Positions 1 through 19,375 of a DNA stretch of 32,518 nucleotides are shown one piece after another. Within the stretch, counting starts at the first letter, position 1. Every line of letters starts with the position of its first letter. The DNA comes from Mesorhizobium sp. (lineage in GTDB: Bacteria > Pseudomonadota > Alphaproteobacteria > Rhizobiales > Rhizobiaceae). The DNA lies in the NCBI GenBank assembly GCA_004020545.1, contig SAQE01000063.1, positions 1 to 32,518 of the forward strand. The letters are read 5' to 3'. The position numbers were made by a program, and so were the translations under genes. The notes below the pieces were generated by a model, which saw nothing but the letters and a program-made list of their open reading frames with translations, had not been told where the DNA came from and made no database searches.

Positions 1-41
1 GTTACCTATGTATCCGGTTCAATCTGTTACCCATCTATCCG
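1..41. repeat. Two imperfect 16-bp direct repeats, possible insertion-sequence end
   Basis: The unit GTTACCTATGTATCCG at 1-16 recurs as GTTACCCATCTATCCG at 26-41, 14 of 16 bases identical and 25 bases apart. Short tandem GTTACC motifs of this kind occur, as I recall, inside the termini of some IS21-like elements, where transposase binds. No transposase gene is inside the window, so the element, if real, lies to the left. The stretch 42-115 shows nothing else recognisable. Confidence 0.4.
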
Positions 42-12372: not shown

Positions 12373-13011
12373 CTACCAGCGGACGAAAAGCCGCCCACCT
12401 ATGGCGCCGAGCGCTGTGAGGATGACAATGGCGAGCGTGTACCAGGTGGCGACGAACAGCGGCGAATCGTCGAAGCAATGCGCGGCATAGAAGGTCGCCG
12501 AGAGTCCGCCGGCGAGCAGGCCGGCGACCGTGCCCGCCAGCATCGGCCGCGTCGGCGCGCCGTGACGCAGCGCCGCGAGAAAGACCGCGAGCGGGCCGAT
12601 GCCGATCAGCGGGATGAAGGTCAGGCAGATGTACCAGTTGGTGCCGACCAGCCTCCTGCCCCACTCAGGCGAAGGCACGGCAAACAGTTCCAGAGCCACG
12701 GCCACGACAACCAGCAGCGGCGCGACGGCCATCCAGGTAGCCGCCCGGGCTGTCGACGCGCCGGGGGTCGACAACGCCCGAATCAGGGCGAACGCGCTGA
12801 CACCGAGCGCGATGGTGAAGACGAATTTGGCGAGGAAGCGCATCGTGTGCATGGCGGCCATGATGTCGGGACGCGGGCCGATGGTCAGCCAGAAGACCGT
12901 CGCCGCGATCATCGCAGCCGCAGCGACCGCCAGCCACCAGGCCGAATCCTGCGGCATCGCCTTGCTGCGCGCATCGGCGTCGAGCGCCTTGATGAGGTCT
13001 TCGGTTCTCAT
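12373..13011 (-). CDS. nrsF: NrsF-family (DUF1109) membrane anti-sigma factor
   Basis: 212-aa protein with a short cytoplasmic N-terminus (MRTEDLIKALDADA) and six predicted membrane helices, the architecture of DUF1109/NrsF anti-sigma factors. Two cysteines, C129 in NWYICLTF and C179 in AAHCFDD, correspond to the conserved pair that family members (Caulobacter NrsF, Bradyrhizobium OsrA) need to respond to oxidants or metal stress. The gene starts one base before the stop of the ECF sigma gene, so the two are translationally coupled and act as a pair. The reading frame is open upstream into the sigma gene, but only the ATG at 13009-13011 gives the family N-terminus. It is inferred to hold the sigma factor at the inner membrane until stress. 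Confidence 0.9.
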   Translation of the reverse strand: MRTEDLIKALDADARSKAMPQDSAWWLAVAAAAMIAATVFWLTIGPRPDIMAAMHTMRFLAKFVFTIALGVSAFALIRALSTPGASTARAATWMAVAPLLVVVAVALELFAVPSPEWGRRLVGTNWYICLTFIPLIGIGPLAVFLAALRHGAPTRPMLAGTVAGLLAGGLSATFYAAHCFDDSPLFVATWYTLAIVILTALGAIGGRLFVRW

Positions 13012-13012
13012 G

Positions 13013-13549
13013 TCACTGTTGTCCGAACCTTTTCGCGATCGCGGCGAGGCCGCGATGCAGCGACACCCTGACCGCCGTCTCGCTGACGCCGAGCTTGGCC
13101 GCCGTTTCGCCGATCGAGCGGCCATCGACCGAAATCGAAGAGACCACCGAACGCTGCGCCGGCGGCAGGCCGTCCAGGGCCCTGGCGATGTCGCGCTCGC
13201 TGACCGTCTCCGCTTCCGGTTCGGCGAAAGTCTCGGCGATCTCGTCGATCTCGACCTCGATGCGCCGGCCTCGCCGGCGGAACGCGTCGATCAGCTTGAA
13301 ACGGGCGATCGCATAGACCCACGGGAGAACCGGAGCATCCTCGCGCCAGGTGTGCCGTTTGACATGAATGGCCAGCAAGGTTTCCTGCACGACATCCTCG
13401 GGGTCGACCCCGCCCTGAACGATCTTGCGCCGGACGAAGCCGCGAACGAGGGCGGCTATCCGGTGCAGAAAGTCGGCATAAGCCCTTTCATCTCCCGCGA
13501 TCGCGGCCCTGAGCAGCCGGGATAGTTCGGCCTCGTCCTTGCCGGTCAC
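13013..13549 (-). CDS. ECF RNA polymerase sigma factor (SigF/EcfF type)
   Basis: 178-aa group IV sigma factor. Region 2 lies in about residues 20-95 (DPEDVVQETLLAIHVKRHTW then PWVYAIARFKLIDAFRRRGRR). Region 4 lies in about 120-175 (LPPAQRSVVSSISVDGRSIGETAAKLGVSETAVRVSLHRGL), which binds the -35 element. The pairing with a DUF1109 anti-sigma directly downstream marks the SigF/ECF16-type group known in Caulobacter and bradyrhizobia. The start is GTG (13547-13549). A matching promoter lies just upstream (13570-13595), suggesting it drives its own transcription. The usual DUF2282/DUF692 or DoxX target genes of this group are not next to it here, so its regulon lies elsewhere. Confidence 0.93.
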   Translation of the reverse strand: MTGKDEAELSRLLRAAIAGDERAYADFLHRIAALVRGFVRRKIVQGGVDPEDVVQETLLAIHVKRHTWREDAPVLPWVYAIARFKLIDAFRRRGRRIEVEIDEIAETFAEPEAETVSERDIARALDGLPPAQRSVVSSISVDGRSIGETAAKLGVSETAVRVSLHRGLAAIAKRFGQQ

Positions 13550-13824: not shown

Positions 13825-13840
13825 TGGCATGGCCCTTGCT
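13825..13840 (+). promoter_or_regulatory. Sigma-54 (-24/-12) promoter of the guanidine operon
   Basis: TGGCATG-GCCC-TTGCT matches the RpoN consensus TGGCACG-N4-TTGCW at all but one base, and the invariant GG (13826-13827) and GC (13838-13839) have the obligatory spacing of 12. Transcription would start near 13851, just before the guanidine riboswitch. Sigma-54 promoters need an activator; in nitrogen metabolism this is usually NtrC. Confidence 0.8.
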
Positions 13841-13856
13841 TCGTAATCGGCGTGCA

Positions 13857-13967
13857 GAGCGTCTAGGGTTCCGGCCGTGTCGATCACGGTGCTGGTCCGA
13901 GAGACGCAACCGCCAGGGATGCATTGAGGCATCCGGCGGAACACGGCGGGCCAAAATCCCGGGAGAA
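13857..13967 (+). ncRNA. Guanidine-I riboswitch (ykkC subtype 1)
   Basis: The conserved ykkC-I core is present in order. GCGTCT (13859-13864) and AGACGC (13902-13907) form the basal stem. TAGGGTTCCG and CTGGTCCGAGAG lie within it. A second stem (CGCC...GGCG with GGATGC/GCATCC) follows. ACGGCGGGCCAAAA then TCCCGGGAGA closes the third helix at about 13943-13966. These are the signature blocks of the guanidinium-binding riboswitch. It lies about 100 bases upstream of an ABC importer gene and in front of a guanidine hydrolase gene, which fits an ON switch for guanidine use. Confidence 0.93.
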
Positions 13968-13994
13968 CCCTGCACGGGTTTGCTGGCGCGAACC

Positions 13995-14063
13995 TCTCCC
14001 GGATGCGCGCTCCGTGAACCCCCAACAAAAAGTCCGGATGCAATCCGGACCGCAAAAAGGGGT
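13995..14063 (+). promoter_or_regulatory. Riboswitch expression platform
   Basis: TCTCCCGG (13995-14002) is the exact complement of CCGGGAGA (13959-13966) in the riboswitch core, so the two states could compete. Further on, GTCCGGAT and ATCCGGAC form a hairpin (14032-14050). ACCCC (14018-14022) can pair with GGGGT (14059-14063), which overlaps the Shine-Dalgarno AAGGGG (14057-14062). No T-run follows, so control of translation initiation is more likely than intrinsic termination. Confidence 0.5.
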
Positions 14064-14068
14064 ATGCA

Positions 14069-15133
14069 ATGCTTCGCAAGCTGGCTGCAATCATCCTGGC
14101 CGCGTCACTCAGCCTTCCCTTGATCCCGGCCGCGCAAGCGGCGCCCAAGAAAGACTTCAAGATCTGCTGGTCGATCTATGTCGGCTGGATGCCATGGGGC
14201 TATCTCGCCGACAGCGGCATCATGAAGAAATGGGCCGACAAATACGGCATCAACGTCGAGATCACCCGCATCAACGACTACGTCGAGAGCATCAACCAGT
14301 ACACTGCTGGCGGCTTCGACGGTTGCTCGATGACCAATATGGACGCGCTGTCGATCCCCGCCGGAGGCGGCGTCGACACCACCGCGCTGATCGTTGGCGA
14401 CTTCTCCAACGGCAACGACGCCGTCATCCTCAAGGACAAGACCGCGCTCAAGGACATTGCCGGCCAGAAGGTCAACCTCGTGGAGCTCTCGGTCTCGCAC
14501 TACCTGCTGGCGCGCGCGCTGGATACGGTCGGGCTCGCCGAGAAGGACATCACCGTGGTCAACACCTCCGATGCCGACATGGTCGCGGCCTATGGCACCG
14601 GCGACGTCACCTCGGTCGTCACCTGGAATCCGCTGGTCTCGGAAATCGTCGCCATGCCGGGCGCCCACAAGGTATTCGATTCGACACAGATCCCCGGCGA
14701 GATCATCGACCTGATGGTCGTCAACACCGCGACGCTGAAGGATAATCCGGCGCTCGGCAAGGCACTCGTCGGCGCATGGTACGAAGCGATGGCCCTGATG
14801 ACCTCCGGCGCACCCGAAGGCAAAGCGGCCAAGGAAGAGATGGCCAAGGCGTCCGGCACCGATCTTGCCGGCTTCGATGCCCAGCTCGCATCGACAGCGA
14901 TGTTCTTCGAGCCGGCCAAGGCGGTCGAGTTCACCAAGGGCGCCGAACTGCCCAAGACGATGGATCTCGTCCGCAACTTCCTGTTCAGCCACGGCATTCT
15001 GGGCACCAAAGCGCCCACTGTCGACGTGATCGGCATGAGCTTCCCCGACGGCTCGACGCTGGGCGATGCCGGCAACGTCAAGCTGCGGTTCGACCCGGCC
15101 TTCATGGCGGAGGCGGCAGCCGGAACGCTCTAG
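14069..15133 (+). CDS. ABC transporter substrate-binding protein, likely guanidine
   Basis: 354-aa periplasmic binding protein of the NrtA/SsuA/ThiY-like class, with a Sec signal peptide ending near AAQA (about residue 24) and mature sequence KICWSIYVGWMPWGYLADSGIMKKWADKYGI. This is the group long annotated as 'putative urea ABC transporter, urea carboxylase region' (TIGR03427-like, recalled, not searched). Such transporters travel with guanidine carboxylase or guanidine hydrolase genes, so guanidine is the more probable ligand than urea. It is first in the operon directly behind a guanidine-I riboswitch; AAGGGG stands 6 bases before the ATG. The permease starts 10 bases after its stop. Ligand specificity is inferred from context. 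Confidence 0.9.
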   Translation: MLRKLAAIILAASLSLPLIPAAQAAPKKDFKICWSIYVGWMPWGYLADSGIMKKWADKYGINVEITRINDYVESINQYTAGGFDGCSMTNMDALSIPAGGGVDTTALIVGDFSNGNDAVILKDKTALKDIAGQKVNLVELSVSHYLLARALDTVGLAEKDITVVNTSDADMVAAYGTGDVTSVVTWNPLVSEIVAMPGAHKVFDSTQIPGEIIDLMVVNTATLKDNPALGKALVGAWYEAMALMTSGAPEGKAAKEEMAKASGTDLAGFDAQLASTAMFFEPAKAVEFTKGAELPKTMDLVRNFLFSHGILGTKAPTVDVIGMSFPDGSTLGDAGNVKLRFDPAFMAEAAAGTL

Positions 15134-15143
15134 GACGATCGTC

Positions 15144-16046
15144 ATGCTGGCCAGAGGAATCGGTGCCGTGCAAGCCGAGGCAGGCGCGAACACAGCCAGC
15201 CCACCTCCCAGCGTGCCGAAGACACGGCTTCGCCTGATCAACGCCAGGGTCTCGCGTGGCGGAGCGGTGTTGCTTGGCACGCTGCCCTTCGCGGCCGTTG
15301 CCGTGGCCTATCTGTCCGCTTCGGCGCAACGGCTGGCCGTCAACGCCAATGACAAGCTGCTGCCTTCCCCGGCACAGATGTGGTCGGCGTTCTTCGATTT
15401 GGCGACCGTGCCGGACAAGCGCTCCGGCGACCTGATCCTGTGGGCCGACACCTATGCCAGCCTGGTCAGGCTGCTCGCGGGCGTCGGCTTGGCGACACTG
15501 ACGGCCCTCTTGCTTGGCATCGCCATCGGCTTCATCCCGCGCGTCAGGGCGTTTCTCCTGCCCTTCGTCACCGTTGTCTGCGTCATCCCGCCCTTGGCGC
15601 TGTTGCCGATCCTGTTCATCGCGCTCGGCCTCGGCGAAACGGCCAAGATCACCTTGATCGCCATTGGCGTGGCGCCGGTCATGGTGCGCGACATCGCCAA
15701 CCGGGTCATGGAACTGCCGCCCGAGCTCATCGCCAAGGCACAGACGCTCGGCGGCAATAGCTGGACCATGGTTCTGAGGCTGGTGCTGCCGCAAACCATG
15801 CCGCGCCTCATCACCTGCGTGCGGCTGGCGCTCGGACCGGCCTGGCTGTTTCTGATCGCGGCGGAGGCCATCGCCTCGACCGAGGGGCTGGGCTACCGCA
15901 TCTTCCTCGTCCGGCGCTACCTGTCGATGGACGTCATCCTGCCCTACGTCGTCTGGATAACGCTGCTCGCCGTCGCCACCGACTGGCTGCTCGCGCGGCT
16001 CTCGTACATGGTTTCCCCGTGGGCTCATCCGGGGTCGGGCAAATGA
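15144..16046 (+). CDS. ABC transporter permease, likely guanidine
   Basis: About 300-aa inner-membrane permease of the nitrate/sulfonate/taurine type (TauC/SsuC-like). Six or so helices follow a 40-residue hydrophilic N-terminus. The EAA-type coupling motif lies in ELPPELIAKAQTLGGNSWTMVLRLVLPQTMPRLI, where the ATPase docks, and EGLGYRIFLVRRYLSMDVILPYVVWI near the end is family-typical. The start is the ATG at 15144; the frame is open further upstream but there overlaps the binding-protein gene. Its stop overlaps the ATPase start (ATGA), a sign of translational coupling. Together with its neighbours it forms the importer that the riboswitch controls. Confidence 0.92.
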   Translation: MLARGIGAVQAEAGANTASPPPSVPKTRLRLINARVSRGGAVLLGTLPFAAVAVAYLSASAQRLAVNANDKLLPSPAQMWSAFFDLATVPDKRSGDLILWADTYASLVRLLAGVGLATLTALLLGIAIGFIPRVRAFLLPFVTVVCVIPPLALLPILFIALGLGETAKITLIAIGVAPVMVRDIANRVMELPPELIAKAQTLGGNSWTMVLRLVLPQTMPRLITCVRLALGPAWLFLIAAEAIASTEGLGYRIFLVRRYLSMDVILPYVVWITLLAVATDWLLARLSYMVSPWAHPGSGK

Positions 16047-16852
16047 GCCGCATCGTCGTCCACGGCCTGGAAAAGAGCTACGGCGACGCCCGCGTGCTGG
16101 AGCGCGTGAGCGTCACCGCCGAGCCCGGCGAATTCCTGTCGCTGGTCGGCGCCAGCGGCTGCGGAAAATCGACCTTCCTGCGCATCCTGCTCGGCCAGGA
16201 GCAGCAGAGCGGCGGCGTGGTCGTCATCGGAGACCGGCCGATCGTGCCGGAACCGACGCCGCAGCGCGGCATCGTCTTCCAGCGCTACTCGGTGTTTCCG
16301 CATCTGACCGCGCTGCAGAACCTGCTGCTGGTCGAGGACTTCCGCTCCGGCGGACCTTTCGGCCGCGTCTTTGGCGCCAGGCGCAGACGCGCGCGGCAGG
16401 AGGCCGAAACCATGCTGGAGCGCGTCGGCCTCGCTCACGCGCGCGACCTCTATCCGGCATCGCTCTCCGGCGGCATGCAGCAGCGGCTGGCGATCGCCCA
16501 AACCCTGCTCGGCCGGCCGCAGATCCTGCTTCTCGACGAACCGTTCGGGGCGCTCGATCCGGGCATCCGCGTCGAGATGCACGAATTGCTCACCGAACTG
16601 TGGAACGAGCACGGCATGACCGTGGTCATGGTCACCCACGACATCGGCGAGGCCTTCAAGCTTGGTACCCGCGTGCTTGTCTTCGACAAGGTGCGCCACG
16701 ATCCCCAGTTTCCGTCCGCCTACGGCGCGACGATCACCTACGATCTGAAGCTCGACCGCAAAGGCCGGGCTTCCGCACGAGACGTGGCCGAAGTGGCCGC
16801 GATAGTCGGGACGACCCGACTGGACAGCGCAATCGCGACGACGGCGTCGTAA
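16043..16852 (+). CDS. ABC transporter ATP-binding protein, likely guanidine
   Basis: 269-aa ATPase of the nitrate/taurine importer class. Walker A GASGCGKST is at 36-44, the signature LSGGMQQR at 141-148, Walker B ILLLDEP at 161-167 and the H-loop VTHD about 35 residues later. An arginine-rich insertion (GARRRRARQ) lies in the helical domain. The C-terminus extends past the usual end by about 60 residues and continues to an unusual IVGTTRLDSAIATTAS. The start ATG overlaps the permease stop by four bases, which settles it against an upstream GTG at 16019. It powers import with the two preceding genes. Confidence 0.93.
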   Translation: MSRIVVHGLEKSYGDARVLERVSVTAEPGEFLSLVGASGCGKSTFLRILLGQEQQSGGVVVIGDRPIVPEPTPQRGIVFQRYSVFPHLTALQNLLLVEDFRSGGPFGRVFGARRRRARQEAETMLERVGLAHARDLYPASLSGGMQQRLAIAQTLLGRPQILLLDEPFGALDPGIRVEMHELLTELWNEHGMTVVMVTHDIGEAFKLGTRVLVFDKVRHDPQFPSAYGATITYDLKLDRKGRASARDVAEVAAIVGTTRLDSAIATTAS

Positions 16853-16864
16853 CGGAGGTTTTTC

Positions 16865-18073
16865 ATGCACAGAGACATTCCAGCGCGCCGGCACCGCCGG
16901 GCCGGGCTGTTTGATCGCCAGCCGCGCCAGCGCTTGCATCATCCCAACTTCGAGATCCGCGACATGCAGGGCTGGAAGTCGATCGAAGCGGAAGGAAAGC
17001 TTCCCGAGGACGGCTGGCGCAAGGAACAGAAATGGGCGCTGGACATGGGTCTGCCGGGATCGGATTCGATCACCGACAAGTCAATCCCGACCTTCGCGCG
17101 CGGCGAGCTGCCGCATTTCGCCGGCATCAACACCTTCCTCAAGGCGCCCTATGTCGAGAATGTCCGCGATGTCGGCCGATACGACGCTGCCGTCATGGGC
17201 ATTCCCTTCGACAGCGGCACCACCTACCGTCCGGGAACCCGTTTCGGGCCGCAGGGCATCCGTCGCATCTCGGCACTCTACACGCCTTACAACTACGAGC
17301 TGGGCGTCGACCTGCGCGAGCAGATGACGCTGTGCGACGCCGGCGACGTCTTCACCATCCCGGCCAATCTCGAAAAGAGCTTCGACCAGATCACCAAGGG
17401 CGTCAGCCACGTCGCCTCCTCGGGCGCGCTGCCGATCATGCTGGGCGGCGATCATTCGATTGGGTTCCCTTGCGTGCGCGGCATCGCCGACGTCACCTCG
17501 AAGCGCATCGGCATCATCCATTTCGACCGCCACATCGATATCCAGGAAAAGGATCTCGACGAGCGCATGCACACCACGCCATGGTATTGGGCGACCAACC
17601 TGCCGAACGTCTCGGCCACCAATCTGGTGCAGCTCGGCATCGGCGGCTGGCAGGTGCCCCGCTATGGCGTGGCCGAGGCCAGGAAGCGCGGCACCAACGT
17701 ACTGACGATTTCGGACATCGAACAGATGGGGCTGGAGAAGACGGCGGAGATCGCGCTCGAACTGGCGTGGAAGGACGCGGACGCCGTCTACATTTCCTTC
17801 GACGTCGACAGCGTCGACTGTGGCTTCGTGCCAGGCACGGGCTGGCCCGAGCCTGGCGGCTTCCTGCCGCGCGAGGCGCTGAAGCTGCTCGGGCTGGTCT
17901 CGGCGCCCGGCATTTGCGGGCTGGAAGTGGTCGAGGTTTCGCCGCCATACGACACCTCGGACATCACCGCGCTGTTCGGTGTGCGGGTCGTCGTCGAGGC
18001 GCTCGGCTCGATGGTCGCCCATGGCACGCTGGGCAAGCACAAATCCATCATCGACAAGCCGACGAGCTTTTGA
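16865..18073 (+). CDS. gdmH: Guanidine hydrolase (GdmH-type ureohydrolase)
   Basis: 402-aa member of the arginase/agmatinase fold. The metal site is complete: H197 in GGDHS, D221, H223 and D225 in HFDRHIDIQ, and D313/D315 in SFDVDSVD. Three features set it apart from agmatinase: a long N-terminal extension (about 90 residues before the catalytic core), MHTTPWYWATN (235-245) where agmatinases have a SHGT-type loop, and GTGWPEPGG with W327 where agmatinases have GTGTPEPGG. These agree with what I recall of the nickel-dependent guanidine hydrolase Sll1077 (GdmH), which makes urea and ammonia from guanidine. A GGAGG site stands before the ATG. The upstream guanidine-I riboswitch, the importer and the downstream nickel-related genes support the assignment. 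An older label would be 'agmatinase'. Confidence 0.88.
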   Translation: MHRDIPARRHRRAGLFDRQPRQRLHHPNFEIRDMQGWKSIEAEGKLPEDGWRKEQKWALDMGLPGSDSITDKSIPTFARGELPHFAGINTFLKAPYVENVRDVGRYDAAVMGIPFDSGTTYRPGTRFGPQGIRRISALYTPYNYELGVDLREQMTLCDAGDVFTIPANLEKSFDQITKGVSHVASSGALPIMLGGDHSIGFPCVRGIADVTSKRIGIIHFDRHIDIQEKDLDERMHTTPWYWATNLPNVSATNLVQLGIGGWQVPRYGVAEARKRGTNVLTISDIEQMGLEKTAEIALELAWKDADAVYISFDVDSVDCGFVPGTGWPEPGGFLPREALKLLGLVSAPGICGLEVVEVSPPYDTSDITALFGVRVVVEALGSMVAHGTLGKHKSIIDKPTSF

Positions 18074-18075
18074 CC

Positions 18076-18612
18076 ATGCACGATGATCATCATCACCACA
18101 GCCACGATCATGGCGACGGCCATCACCATCACCGCCCGACCGGCAACCATCACCATCCGCACGCCGTCGGCCACAACGGGCCGGCCGGCAAACCGTTGCA
18201 GTGGCAGACGCCGCATTTGCCGCGCGAGCATGCGCCCGAGCCGGCCGACCCGCGCGCGACCGATCTCGATCTCGTTGAGACAGCCTTTCTCGACGGGTTC
18301 GCGCGGGCACCCGATCCATCCAGTTTCCTGCGGCTCGCCGGCATTCCGTTCCTCGGCGAAACCACCGACGGCAGGCGGCTGCACCTGCTGCGGGTCGAGA
18401 CGCAGGATATCGTCGATGTCGGCGCCGTGATGCCGCTGATCGGTGGCGCCGGCGTGACCTATAACCCGCTGCCCGCGAAGCTGACGTCACACCGACGTCG
18501 CCTGGCATTTGTCTACCATGACGGCAATGGCCAGCGGCCTCTCGATTTCAGCGAGGCACGGCTTCTGATCGACAGGTCCGCGGCGGCCGAAATCGCTATG
18601 CCCGGACAGTGA
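18076..18612 (+). CDS. His-rich protein of the guanidine operon, candidate nickel chaperone
   Basis: 178-aa protein that starts two bases after the hydrolase stop, so it is translationally coupled to it. The first 33 residues contain 16 histidines in runs (HHHH at 5-8 and 16-19, HHH at 25-27), with alternating Asp and Gly, a classic nickel/zinc-chelating stretch like those of HypB, UreE or CooJ. The remaining 130 residues (from about LQWQTPHLPRE, with FLRLAGIPFLGETTDGRRLHLLRVET and MPLIGGAGVTYNPLPAKL) form a globular domain I do not recognise; there is no P-loop, so it is not HypB, and no CxxC pairs, so it is not HypA. Context suggests it stores nickel or delivers it to the hydrolase. The function is inference; the coding call is firm. 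Confidence 0.85.
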   Translation: MHDDHHHHSHDHGDGHHHHRPTGNHHHPHAVGHNGPAGKPLQWQTPHLPREHAPEPADPRATDLDLVETAFLDGFARAPDPSSFLRLAGIPFLGETTDGRRLHLLRVETQDIVDVGAVMPLIGGAGVTYNPLPAKLTSHRRRLAFVYHDGNGQRPLDFSEARLLIDRSAAAEIAMPGQ

Positions 18613-18661
18613 ACGCCGGTTTTGACCCGGATCCTCTCCCTTTCAAACAAGGCTCAGACCC

Positions 18662-19255
18662 ATGAACAGAATGCTTTCGATTCTCACCAGACTTGCTCCG
18701 GCGGCCGCGGCGGCTCTCACACCGTCACTGGCCTTCGCTCACAGCGGCGGCTTTCATGTCCACGGCCTTCTGAGCGGCCTTCAACACCCGCTGGCCGGCA
18801 TCGACCATCTGCTTGCGATGCTATTGGTCGGCATCATTGCGGCGCGAACCGGCGGCAGGGCCGCCATCCTCGTGCCGGCGTGTTTCGTCGCGGCGATGGT
18901 CGCGGGGGCCACGCTTGGGATGGCCGGTACCGTCTTGCCGTCGCTGGAGTCCGGGATCGCGCTGTCGTTGGTGATTTTCGGCGCCATGGTTGCGCTCGCC
19001 AGGCCGTTTCCGCTTGCCTTCGCCGCCACGCTGACGGTGCTCTTCGGCCTTTTCCACGGCAACGCCCATGGTCTTGAGATTCCGGAGACGGTCGGTGGCA
19101 TGGCCTATGCGATCGGCTTCCTGGCCAGCACCTCGGCTTTGCACGCGACCGGAGTGCTGGCCGCCCTGACGTTGCGGAGCCGGCCGGCAGCCATCCGCGC
19201 GGCAGGGATCGGCACCTCGCTGGTCGGAGTGGCGCTGGCCGCGCAGCTCATCTGA
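18662..19255 (+). CDS. HupE/UreJ-family nickel permease
   Basis: 197-aa membrane protein with a signal-like N-terminus ending in AFAHSG and about six helices. The family motif HPLAGIDHLLAM (residues 42-53) is exact, FGLFHGNAHG (about 128-137) is the second conserved His motif, and ALHATGV near residue 160 the third. HupE and UreJ proteins supply nickel to hydrogenase and urease. Here no hydrogenase or urease gene is adjacent; the only apparent nickel enzyme is the guanidine hydrolase, so it is likely to feed that enzyme. It lies 49 bases after the His-rich gene on the same strand. Confidence 0.93.
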   Translation: MNRMLSILTRLAPAAAAALTPSLAFAHSGGFHVHGLLSGLQHPLAGIDHLLAMLLVGIIAARTGGRAAILVPACFVAAMVAGATLGMAGTVLPSLESGIALSLVIFGAMVALARPFPLAFAATLTVLFGLFHGNAHGLEIPETVGGMAYAIGFLASTSALHATGVLAALTLRSRPAAIRAAGIGTSLVGVALAAQLI

Positions 19256-19294
19256 GCCGGCGGCTCAAGGATCGAGCGAACGGGAGGCGGCACC

Positions 19295-19375
19295 ATGCCC
19301 AGACCATTGACGATCTGGCGACGCATTCGAGAGCTGCTGTACCATGTCCTGAAGGTACGAGCCGAACGGCTCTGA
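19295..19375 (+). CDS. Possible 26-residue small protein after the nickel permease
   Basis: A 26-codon frame from ATG 19295 to TGA 19375 is preceded by GGGAGG at the right distance. The product (MPRPLTIWRRIRELLYHVL plus seven residues) is strongly basic and would form an amphipathic helix. It lies 39 bases after the nickel permease and just before a strong hairpin, as the last unit of the guanidine operon would. Nothing but the ribosome site supports it, and a chance frame of this length is not rare in GC-rich DNA. Confidence 0.35.
   Translation: MPRPLTIWRRIRELLYHVLKVRAERL

Follow-up and report, generated by a model that had tools for sequence, protein, structure and literature searches.

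How does a bacterium without the nickel-maturation proteins HypA and HypB activate a nickel-dependent guanidinase? The question arises from a 32,518-nucleotide stretch of DNA from Mesorhizobium sp. (assembly GCA_004020545.1, contig SAQE01000063.1, positions 1 to 32,518 of the forward strand; the window), in which an earlier note, made without database searches, had described an operon for guanidine import and hydrolysis. Read 5' to 3', the operon consists of a sigma-54 promoter, a Guanidine-I riboswitch, a three-gene ATP-binding cassette (ABC) importer, a guanidinase (GdmH), an open reading frame (ORF) for a histidine-rich protein, and a HupE permease (Table 1), and we found all parts as the note had stated and in the same order. 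An operon for using guanidine is, in itself, of an already known kind. What is new is the histidine-rich protein, here called HisR, as a partner of GdmH without HypA/HypB, together with the fixed position of the sigma-54 promoter. The note had listed the HisR gene but had missed its role as a constant partner of gdmH. Judging from sequence comparisons, we consider it likely that the locus is a guanidine-assimilation operon, controlled by sigma-54 and the riboswitch, in which HisR would deliver nickel to GdmH in place of HypA/HypB.

The hydrolase is of the GdmH type, and not an agmatinase, because it shares a fully supported clade with characterized guanidinases and carries their specificity residues. 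Its top sequence matches in the PDB are the Synechocystis enzyme (7esr/7oi1, E 1.1e-160) and 9fek (E 1e-154), which is the Nitrospira inopinata guanidinase (PMC11410670); the next is the guanidinobutyrase 3nio, at 2.4e-50. In a 33-row tree, a check of the kind that the earlier note had proposed, 25 GdmH rows including both characterized guanidinases (Synechocystis and Nitrospira) formed a single 100/100 clade. This clade stands apart from three other characterized enzymes and five paralogs from the source genome, on a very long connecting branch that makes the deep branching order unsafe. In the accessible text of PMC11410670, guanidinase specificity is reported to need Thr105, His222, and Trp313 (N. 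inopinata numbering). The hydrolase has T120, H236, and W327 at these places, and also E357; in this mapping the HMMER chain index runs two ahead of the published numbering in both proteins, a shift inferred from two positions checked. The metal-site residues H197, D221, H223, D225, D313, and D315 are present as well and are invariant in our alignment A3. We infer that the enzyme splits guanidine into urea and ammonia.

Database labels tell a different story. The substrate-binding protein (SBP) of the importer passes the NCBIfam model TIGR03427, "putative urea ABC transporter substrate-binding protein", at 553 bits (cut-off, 334), and a plasmid record calls the orthologous hydrolase "agmatinase family protein" and the histidine-rich gene "hypothetical protein". 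The operon could accordingly be for another guanidino compound or for urea, with an agmatinase-like hydrolase and a urea importer, as annotated. We regard this as very improbable. The hydrolase does have an arginase-family fold, but it falls below both NCBIfam agmatinase cut-offs (TIGR01230, 158.9 against 174.3 bits; NF002564, 205.4 against 302), lies in the guanidinase clade, and has Trp327, which is missing from the guanidinobutyrase, guanidinopropionase, and proclavaminate hydrolase tested and from the five source-genome paralogs; moreover, a guanidine riboswitch heads the operon. We therefore rejected the agmatinase reading. The nearest solved relatives of the SBP are weak matches, to taurine-, sulfonate-, and nitrate-binding proteins, and its predicted ligand is guanidine. 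Thus, the warning of the earlier note that such operons might be mis-annotated was justified, its three-part importer and GdmH-type hydrolase being borne out by Pfam domains, clade, and residues, and there is a case for correcting the labels "urea transporter", "agmatinase", and "hypothetical protein" in operons of this kind.

GdmH relatives need nickel. In Synechocystis, according to the accessible text of the reports, two nickel proteins encoded in the operon, GhaA and GhaB, carry out the maturation of GdmH (PMC12186494, PMC12930504, PMC11399263). We searched for HypA, HypB, and urease in 50 genomes, namely the source genome and 49 from a set of 80 loci; these 80 are the best of at least 560 relatives confirmed in a contig scan, in which other phyla are barely represented. 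HypA had no match in the source genome and was missing from 31 of the 50 GdmH genomes, and HypB exceeded its cut-off in exactly the same 19 genomes as HypA. The only HypB match in the source genome, C138:1189, is below the cut-off, lies on the contig with the urease gene, and is probably UreG. HypA/HypB encoded near gdmH were rejected as an explanation, as the 80 loci gave no HypA match and a single weak HypB match (27%, in L068). Most of these genomes must therefore have another means of activating the enzyme, whose one constant neighbor is HisR. This pattern points to HisR as probably a dedicated nickel-maturation partner of GdmH, acting in place of HypA/HypB.

The HisR core follows gdmH directly in 80/80 loci (median spacing, 4 bases), and does so too in all 20 relatives from which we fetched regions of up to 16 kb for operon comparison. 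Five of the fetched loci are identical to members of the 80-locus set, so that 95 distinct alphaproteobacterial loci share the arrangement. Since the importer, gdmH, and the histidine-rich gene keep their order in 20/20 fetched relatives, the operon arrangement is more than chance. With GdmH presence called at E <= 1e-100, the enzyme is a patchy, accessory trait. At the genus level it is present in 8/37 genomes, among relatives in 11/61, in the class sample in 11/385, and in the phylum sample in 7/398, these last seven genomes belonging without exception to the class. The same seven genomes of the phylum set hold HisR. In the class set HisR occurs in 13 genomes, which are the 11 with GdmH and two more. 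Both extra loci look like remnants: in one (L142, genome G425), the riboswitch and an SBP fragment run straight into the HisR core, possibly by internal deletion or an assembly fault, and the other holds a core fragment only.

Other partners for HisR were considered and rejected. All ten loci with neither an SBP nor a permease within 8 kb retain HisR, which argues against a part in the importer, and 64/80 loci have no HupE directly downstream, which argues against a HupE partner; HisR thus goes with the hydrolase. A role as a general nickel protein was rejected as well, because in the genome samples the two remnants were the only occurrences outside gdmH genomes.

What kind of protein is HisR? 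Its tail has a median length of 52 residues, of which a median of 17 are His, and 78/80 members have at least five His there. The 75 aligned core sequences conserve chiefly P, G, F, Y, and R, plus one D. An AlphaFold2 model of the core (mean pLDDT 89.4, pTM 0.76) has two helices followed by mostly beta structure. The window protein had no match in Pfam or NCBIfam, and the 75 members yielded three chance-like single matches against Pfam; in the PDB there was no sequence match at E up to 10 and no Foldseek match at E 0.001, the best being 0.14. Core dN/dS was 0.14-0.16 in the three pairs with amino-acid changes and 0 in a fourth. By these measures, and within the libraries searched, HisR is a translated protein under constraint and belongs to a family not yet described. 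We found no prior description of the gene, or of the promoter-aptamer layout, in the literature searched, which was mostly open-access, and an earlier mention is possible.

Nickel chaperones, UreE and HypB among them, typically have histidine-rich tails. Like these, HisR joins a histidine-rich tail to a folded core and is encoded beside a nickel enzyme, but the PDB and Foldseek searches revealed no relation to them in sequence or fold. A stronger proposal is that HisR represents a new nickel-metallochaperone family whose core fold is unmatched in the PDB, and that this family is dedicated to guanidinase and replaced HypA/HypB in Alphaproteobacteria; here we see the chances as evenly poised. 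Alternatively, HisR could store or buffer nickel, or could be a stabilizing or allosteric subunit of GdmH, the operon being otherwise as described. The core, and not the tail, is the constant part, some members having almost no histidine-rich tail, and its conserved P, G, F, Y, R, and D residues are as expected of a binding surface. Yet nearly all members keep the tail, and such tails are characteristic of delivery proteins; we therefore judge this alternative rather unlikely and favor nickel delivery by HisR.

The second new feature is the control region. Sigma-54 promoters have GG and GC ten bases apart, in the context TGGCAY-N5-TTGCW. The element TGGCATGGCCCTTGCT fits this consensus, and its score was never reached when the 160 bases preceding the aptamer landmark were shuffled 200 times. 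Among the 74 loci with the landmark (80 examined), 51 have a -24/-12 element whose end lies 20-26 bases ahead of it, against 12 of 37,000 shuffles; the rule applied (score >=10, distance 20-26) was set after a first look at the data, and the margin is large. The riboswitch scores 78.5 bits with the RF00442 covariance model, above the gathering score of 63, is the sole Guanidine-I match in the source genome, and is found at the gathering score in 16/20 relatives. Both elements had been named by the earlier note, and both searches agree with it. Dual control is well supported because the promoter-aptamer distance is kept so much more often than in shuffled sequences.

Downstream of the aptamer, TCTCCCGG can pair with the aptamer 3' strand, and a predicted fold pairs CCCC with GGGG right before the start codon (leader folds, z -3.28 and -2.75). 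A complement of at least 7 nt to the aptamer 3' strand occurs at +20..36 in 43/72 loci, against 292/14,400 shuffles (2%). Visual inspection of the window showed no U-rich terminator. These features suggest that the leader may switch between the aptamer and an expression platform.

Which signal feeds the promoter is less clear. The note had proposed nitrogen shortage; its pairing of sigma-54 with a riboswitch stands, but for nitrogen shortage acting through NtrC no NtrC-like site stood out. NtrC-like half-sites and dyads (TGCACC/GGTGCA type) were few and scattered, and most of the 51 upstream regions had none, in a pattern scan that weak sites escape. A different dyad, TGCC-N9-GGCA, is modestly enriched: it is present in 8/44 upstream regions, and none of 100 shuffled sets had it in more than 5. 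The longer version CTGCC-N9-GGCAG, one mismatch allowed, is found in 12/52 regions against 0.9 expected, the motif having been chosen on the same sequences, and in related loci it sits at about -60 to -140, upstream of the promoter. The dyad may mark the site of an enhancer-binding activator. That the promoter answers a dedicated protein of this type rather than NtrC, with nitrogen shortage not being the second input, is a serious possibility that we place a little short of even. Besides the choice of motif, two points tell against it: the best CTGCC-N9-GGCAG match of the source operon itself differs at 3 positions, no better than chance, and a scan with a single motif revealed no gene for an enhancer-binding protein within 8 kb of the 80 loci.

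Several observations weigh against the reading of the operon as a whole. No promoter stands at the expected place in 23 of the 74 loci, including those of Sinorhizobium and Rhodobacterales and importer-less loci, and L038, L039, L042, and L043 gave no riboswitch at the gathering score, the contig of L043 ending just upstream. The HisR tail is short or absent in some members (0 His in L097, 4 in L118, 3 in L040, 4 in L043, and 1 in L044). Because the core has neither a conserved set of Cys or His across the 75 aligned sequences nor a fold match, the case for metal delivery rests on this tail. HisR is missing from three GdmH loci of actinobacteria, two of them in Rubrobacter and the third in Nonomuraea, that of R. 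indicoceani having the riboswitch; the enzyme is therefore not always in need of HisR. Finally, 19 of the 50 GdmH genomes do have HypA/HypB.

We propose the following sequence of events. Given an active enhancer-binding activator, itself postulated along with its signal, RNA polymerase with sigma-54 would start at about 13851, just before the aptamer or at its first bases, if the usual start distance applies. The riboswitch would then permit expression of the message when guanidine is present, the ABC importer would take up guanidine, and GdmH would hydrolyze it. Urease, encoded elsewhere in the genome, would complete the pathway; it is relevant because it is needed to use the urea product, and its alpha gene was present in 50/50 genomes, the source genome included. 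HupE probably imports nickel. The HisR tail would bind the metal, and HisR would hand nickel to GdmH, replacing the HypA/HypB (GhaA/GhaB) proteins that the source genome lacks.

Comparison with described systems, as far as the accessible text of each report goes, sets these proposals in context. The gdmH operon of Synechocystis PCC 6803 likewise has Guanidine-I control, an ABC importer, GdmH, nickel-delivery genes, and urease elsewhere, but its helpers GhaA/GhaB are of the HypA/HypB type, whereas here there are the unrelated HisR and HupE and no HypA/HypB in the genome; the sigma-54 promoter before the aptamer is a feature of the operon described here (PMC12186494, PMC12930504). The N. inopinata locus shares Guanidine-I control, a guanidinase of the same clade, urease, and the lack of a HypA/HypB-type chaperone nearby, but has an APC permease in place of the ABC importer, and no nickel-loading protein is recognized in the accessible account (PMC11410670). 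Operons for metformin or dimethylguanidine hydrolase also combine a nickel ureohydrolase, nickel helper genes, and a downstream HupE homolog, but differ in having hypA and hypB, two ureohydrolase subunits, and other substrates (PMC11399263, PMC11271267).

The comammox study (Nature 2024) describes the nickel-loading mechanism of guanidinase as unclear where no chaperone was found (PMC11410670). HisR is a concrete, testable candidate for that step in one large group of guanidine users. If the proposal is true, a nickel ureohydrolase could be loaded by a second route, and helpers of a type that escapes domain-based searches would exist, perhaps also in comammox Nitrospira. The fixed layout of promoter and aptamer, in turn, points to a coupling of guanidine sensing with a promoter under activator control throughout Alphaproteobacteria.

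Table 1. Features of the guanidine operon, in window coordinates.
Feature	Position	Strand	Evidence and remarks
Sigma-54-type -24/-12 promoter TGGCATGGCCCTTGCT	13825..13840	+	GG 13826-13827, GC 13838-13839
Guanidine-I riboswitch aptamer	13852..13967	+	RF00442, 78.5 bits, E 1.4e-12, full model; landmark CTAGGGTTCCG at 13863
Post-aptamer leader, including TCTCCCGG	13968..14068	+	TCTCCCGG complementary to aptamer 3' strand; predicted folds
ABC substrate-binding protein (SBP)	14069..15133	+	PF13379, PF09084; TIGR03427
ABC permease	15144..16046	+	PF00528, E 1.4e-17
ABC ATPase	16043..16852	+	PF00005, E 3.8e-31
Guanidinase, GdmH type, 402 aa, arginase fold	16865..18073	+	PDB sequence matches, specificity residues, clade
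Histidine-rich protein HisR (label coined here), 178 aa	18076..18612	+	His-rich tail, then conserved core of ~105 residues
HupE/UreJ-family permease	18662..19255	+	PF04955, E 8.8e-49, 165.9 bits against cut-off 23

The HupE/UreJ permease, for which no solved relative was found in the PDB at E up to 1, is probably a nickel importer and an optional part of the operon. The earlier note had counted it as a member, and it is indeed present, but among relatives it was found in only 8/20 (tblastn) and lies directly downstream of HisR in 16/80 loci. The note had also placed the end of the operon at 19375; we corrected this, as a short ORF of 26 codons, at most a putative member of the operon, has its stop there, beyond HupE (MPRPLTIWRRIRELLYHVLKVRAERL, 19295-19375, + strand). 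A near-identical peptide is present in L049, and a short string search for it was negative in L050, L053, and L055.

The ten loci in which neither an SBP nor a permease lies in the 8 kb to each side are L059-L063, L065-L067, L071, and L075. ORFs were listed for six of them and none was assigned as an importer; nine of the ten have the aptamer landmark upstream of gdmH. On a plasmid of Rubrobacter indicoceani (L161), the riboswitch and gdmH adjoin genes for a sodium:solute symporter, formamidase, and urease. One contig labeled as an Anaerolineae metagenome-assembled genome (L118) carries an alphaproteobacteria-like gdmH (75%) with HisR, by mis-binning or transfer. The source genome comprises 7.0 Mb, and its closest loci among the best 80 are from Mesorhizobium. 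Divergent from the operon, on the minus strand at 12373-13549, are genes for an ECF sigma factor and an NrsF anti-sigma factor.

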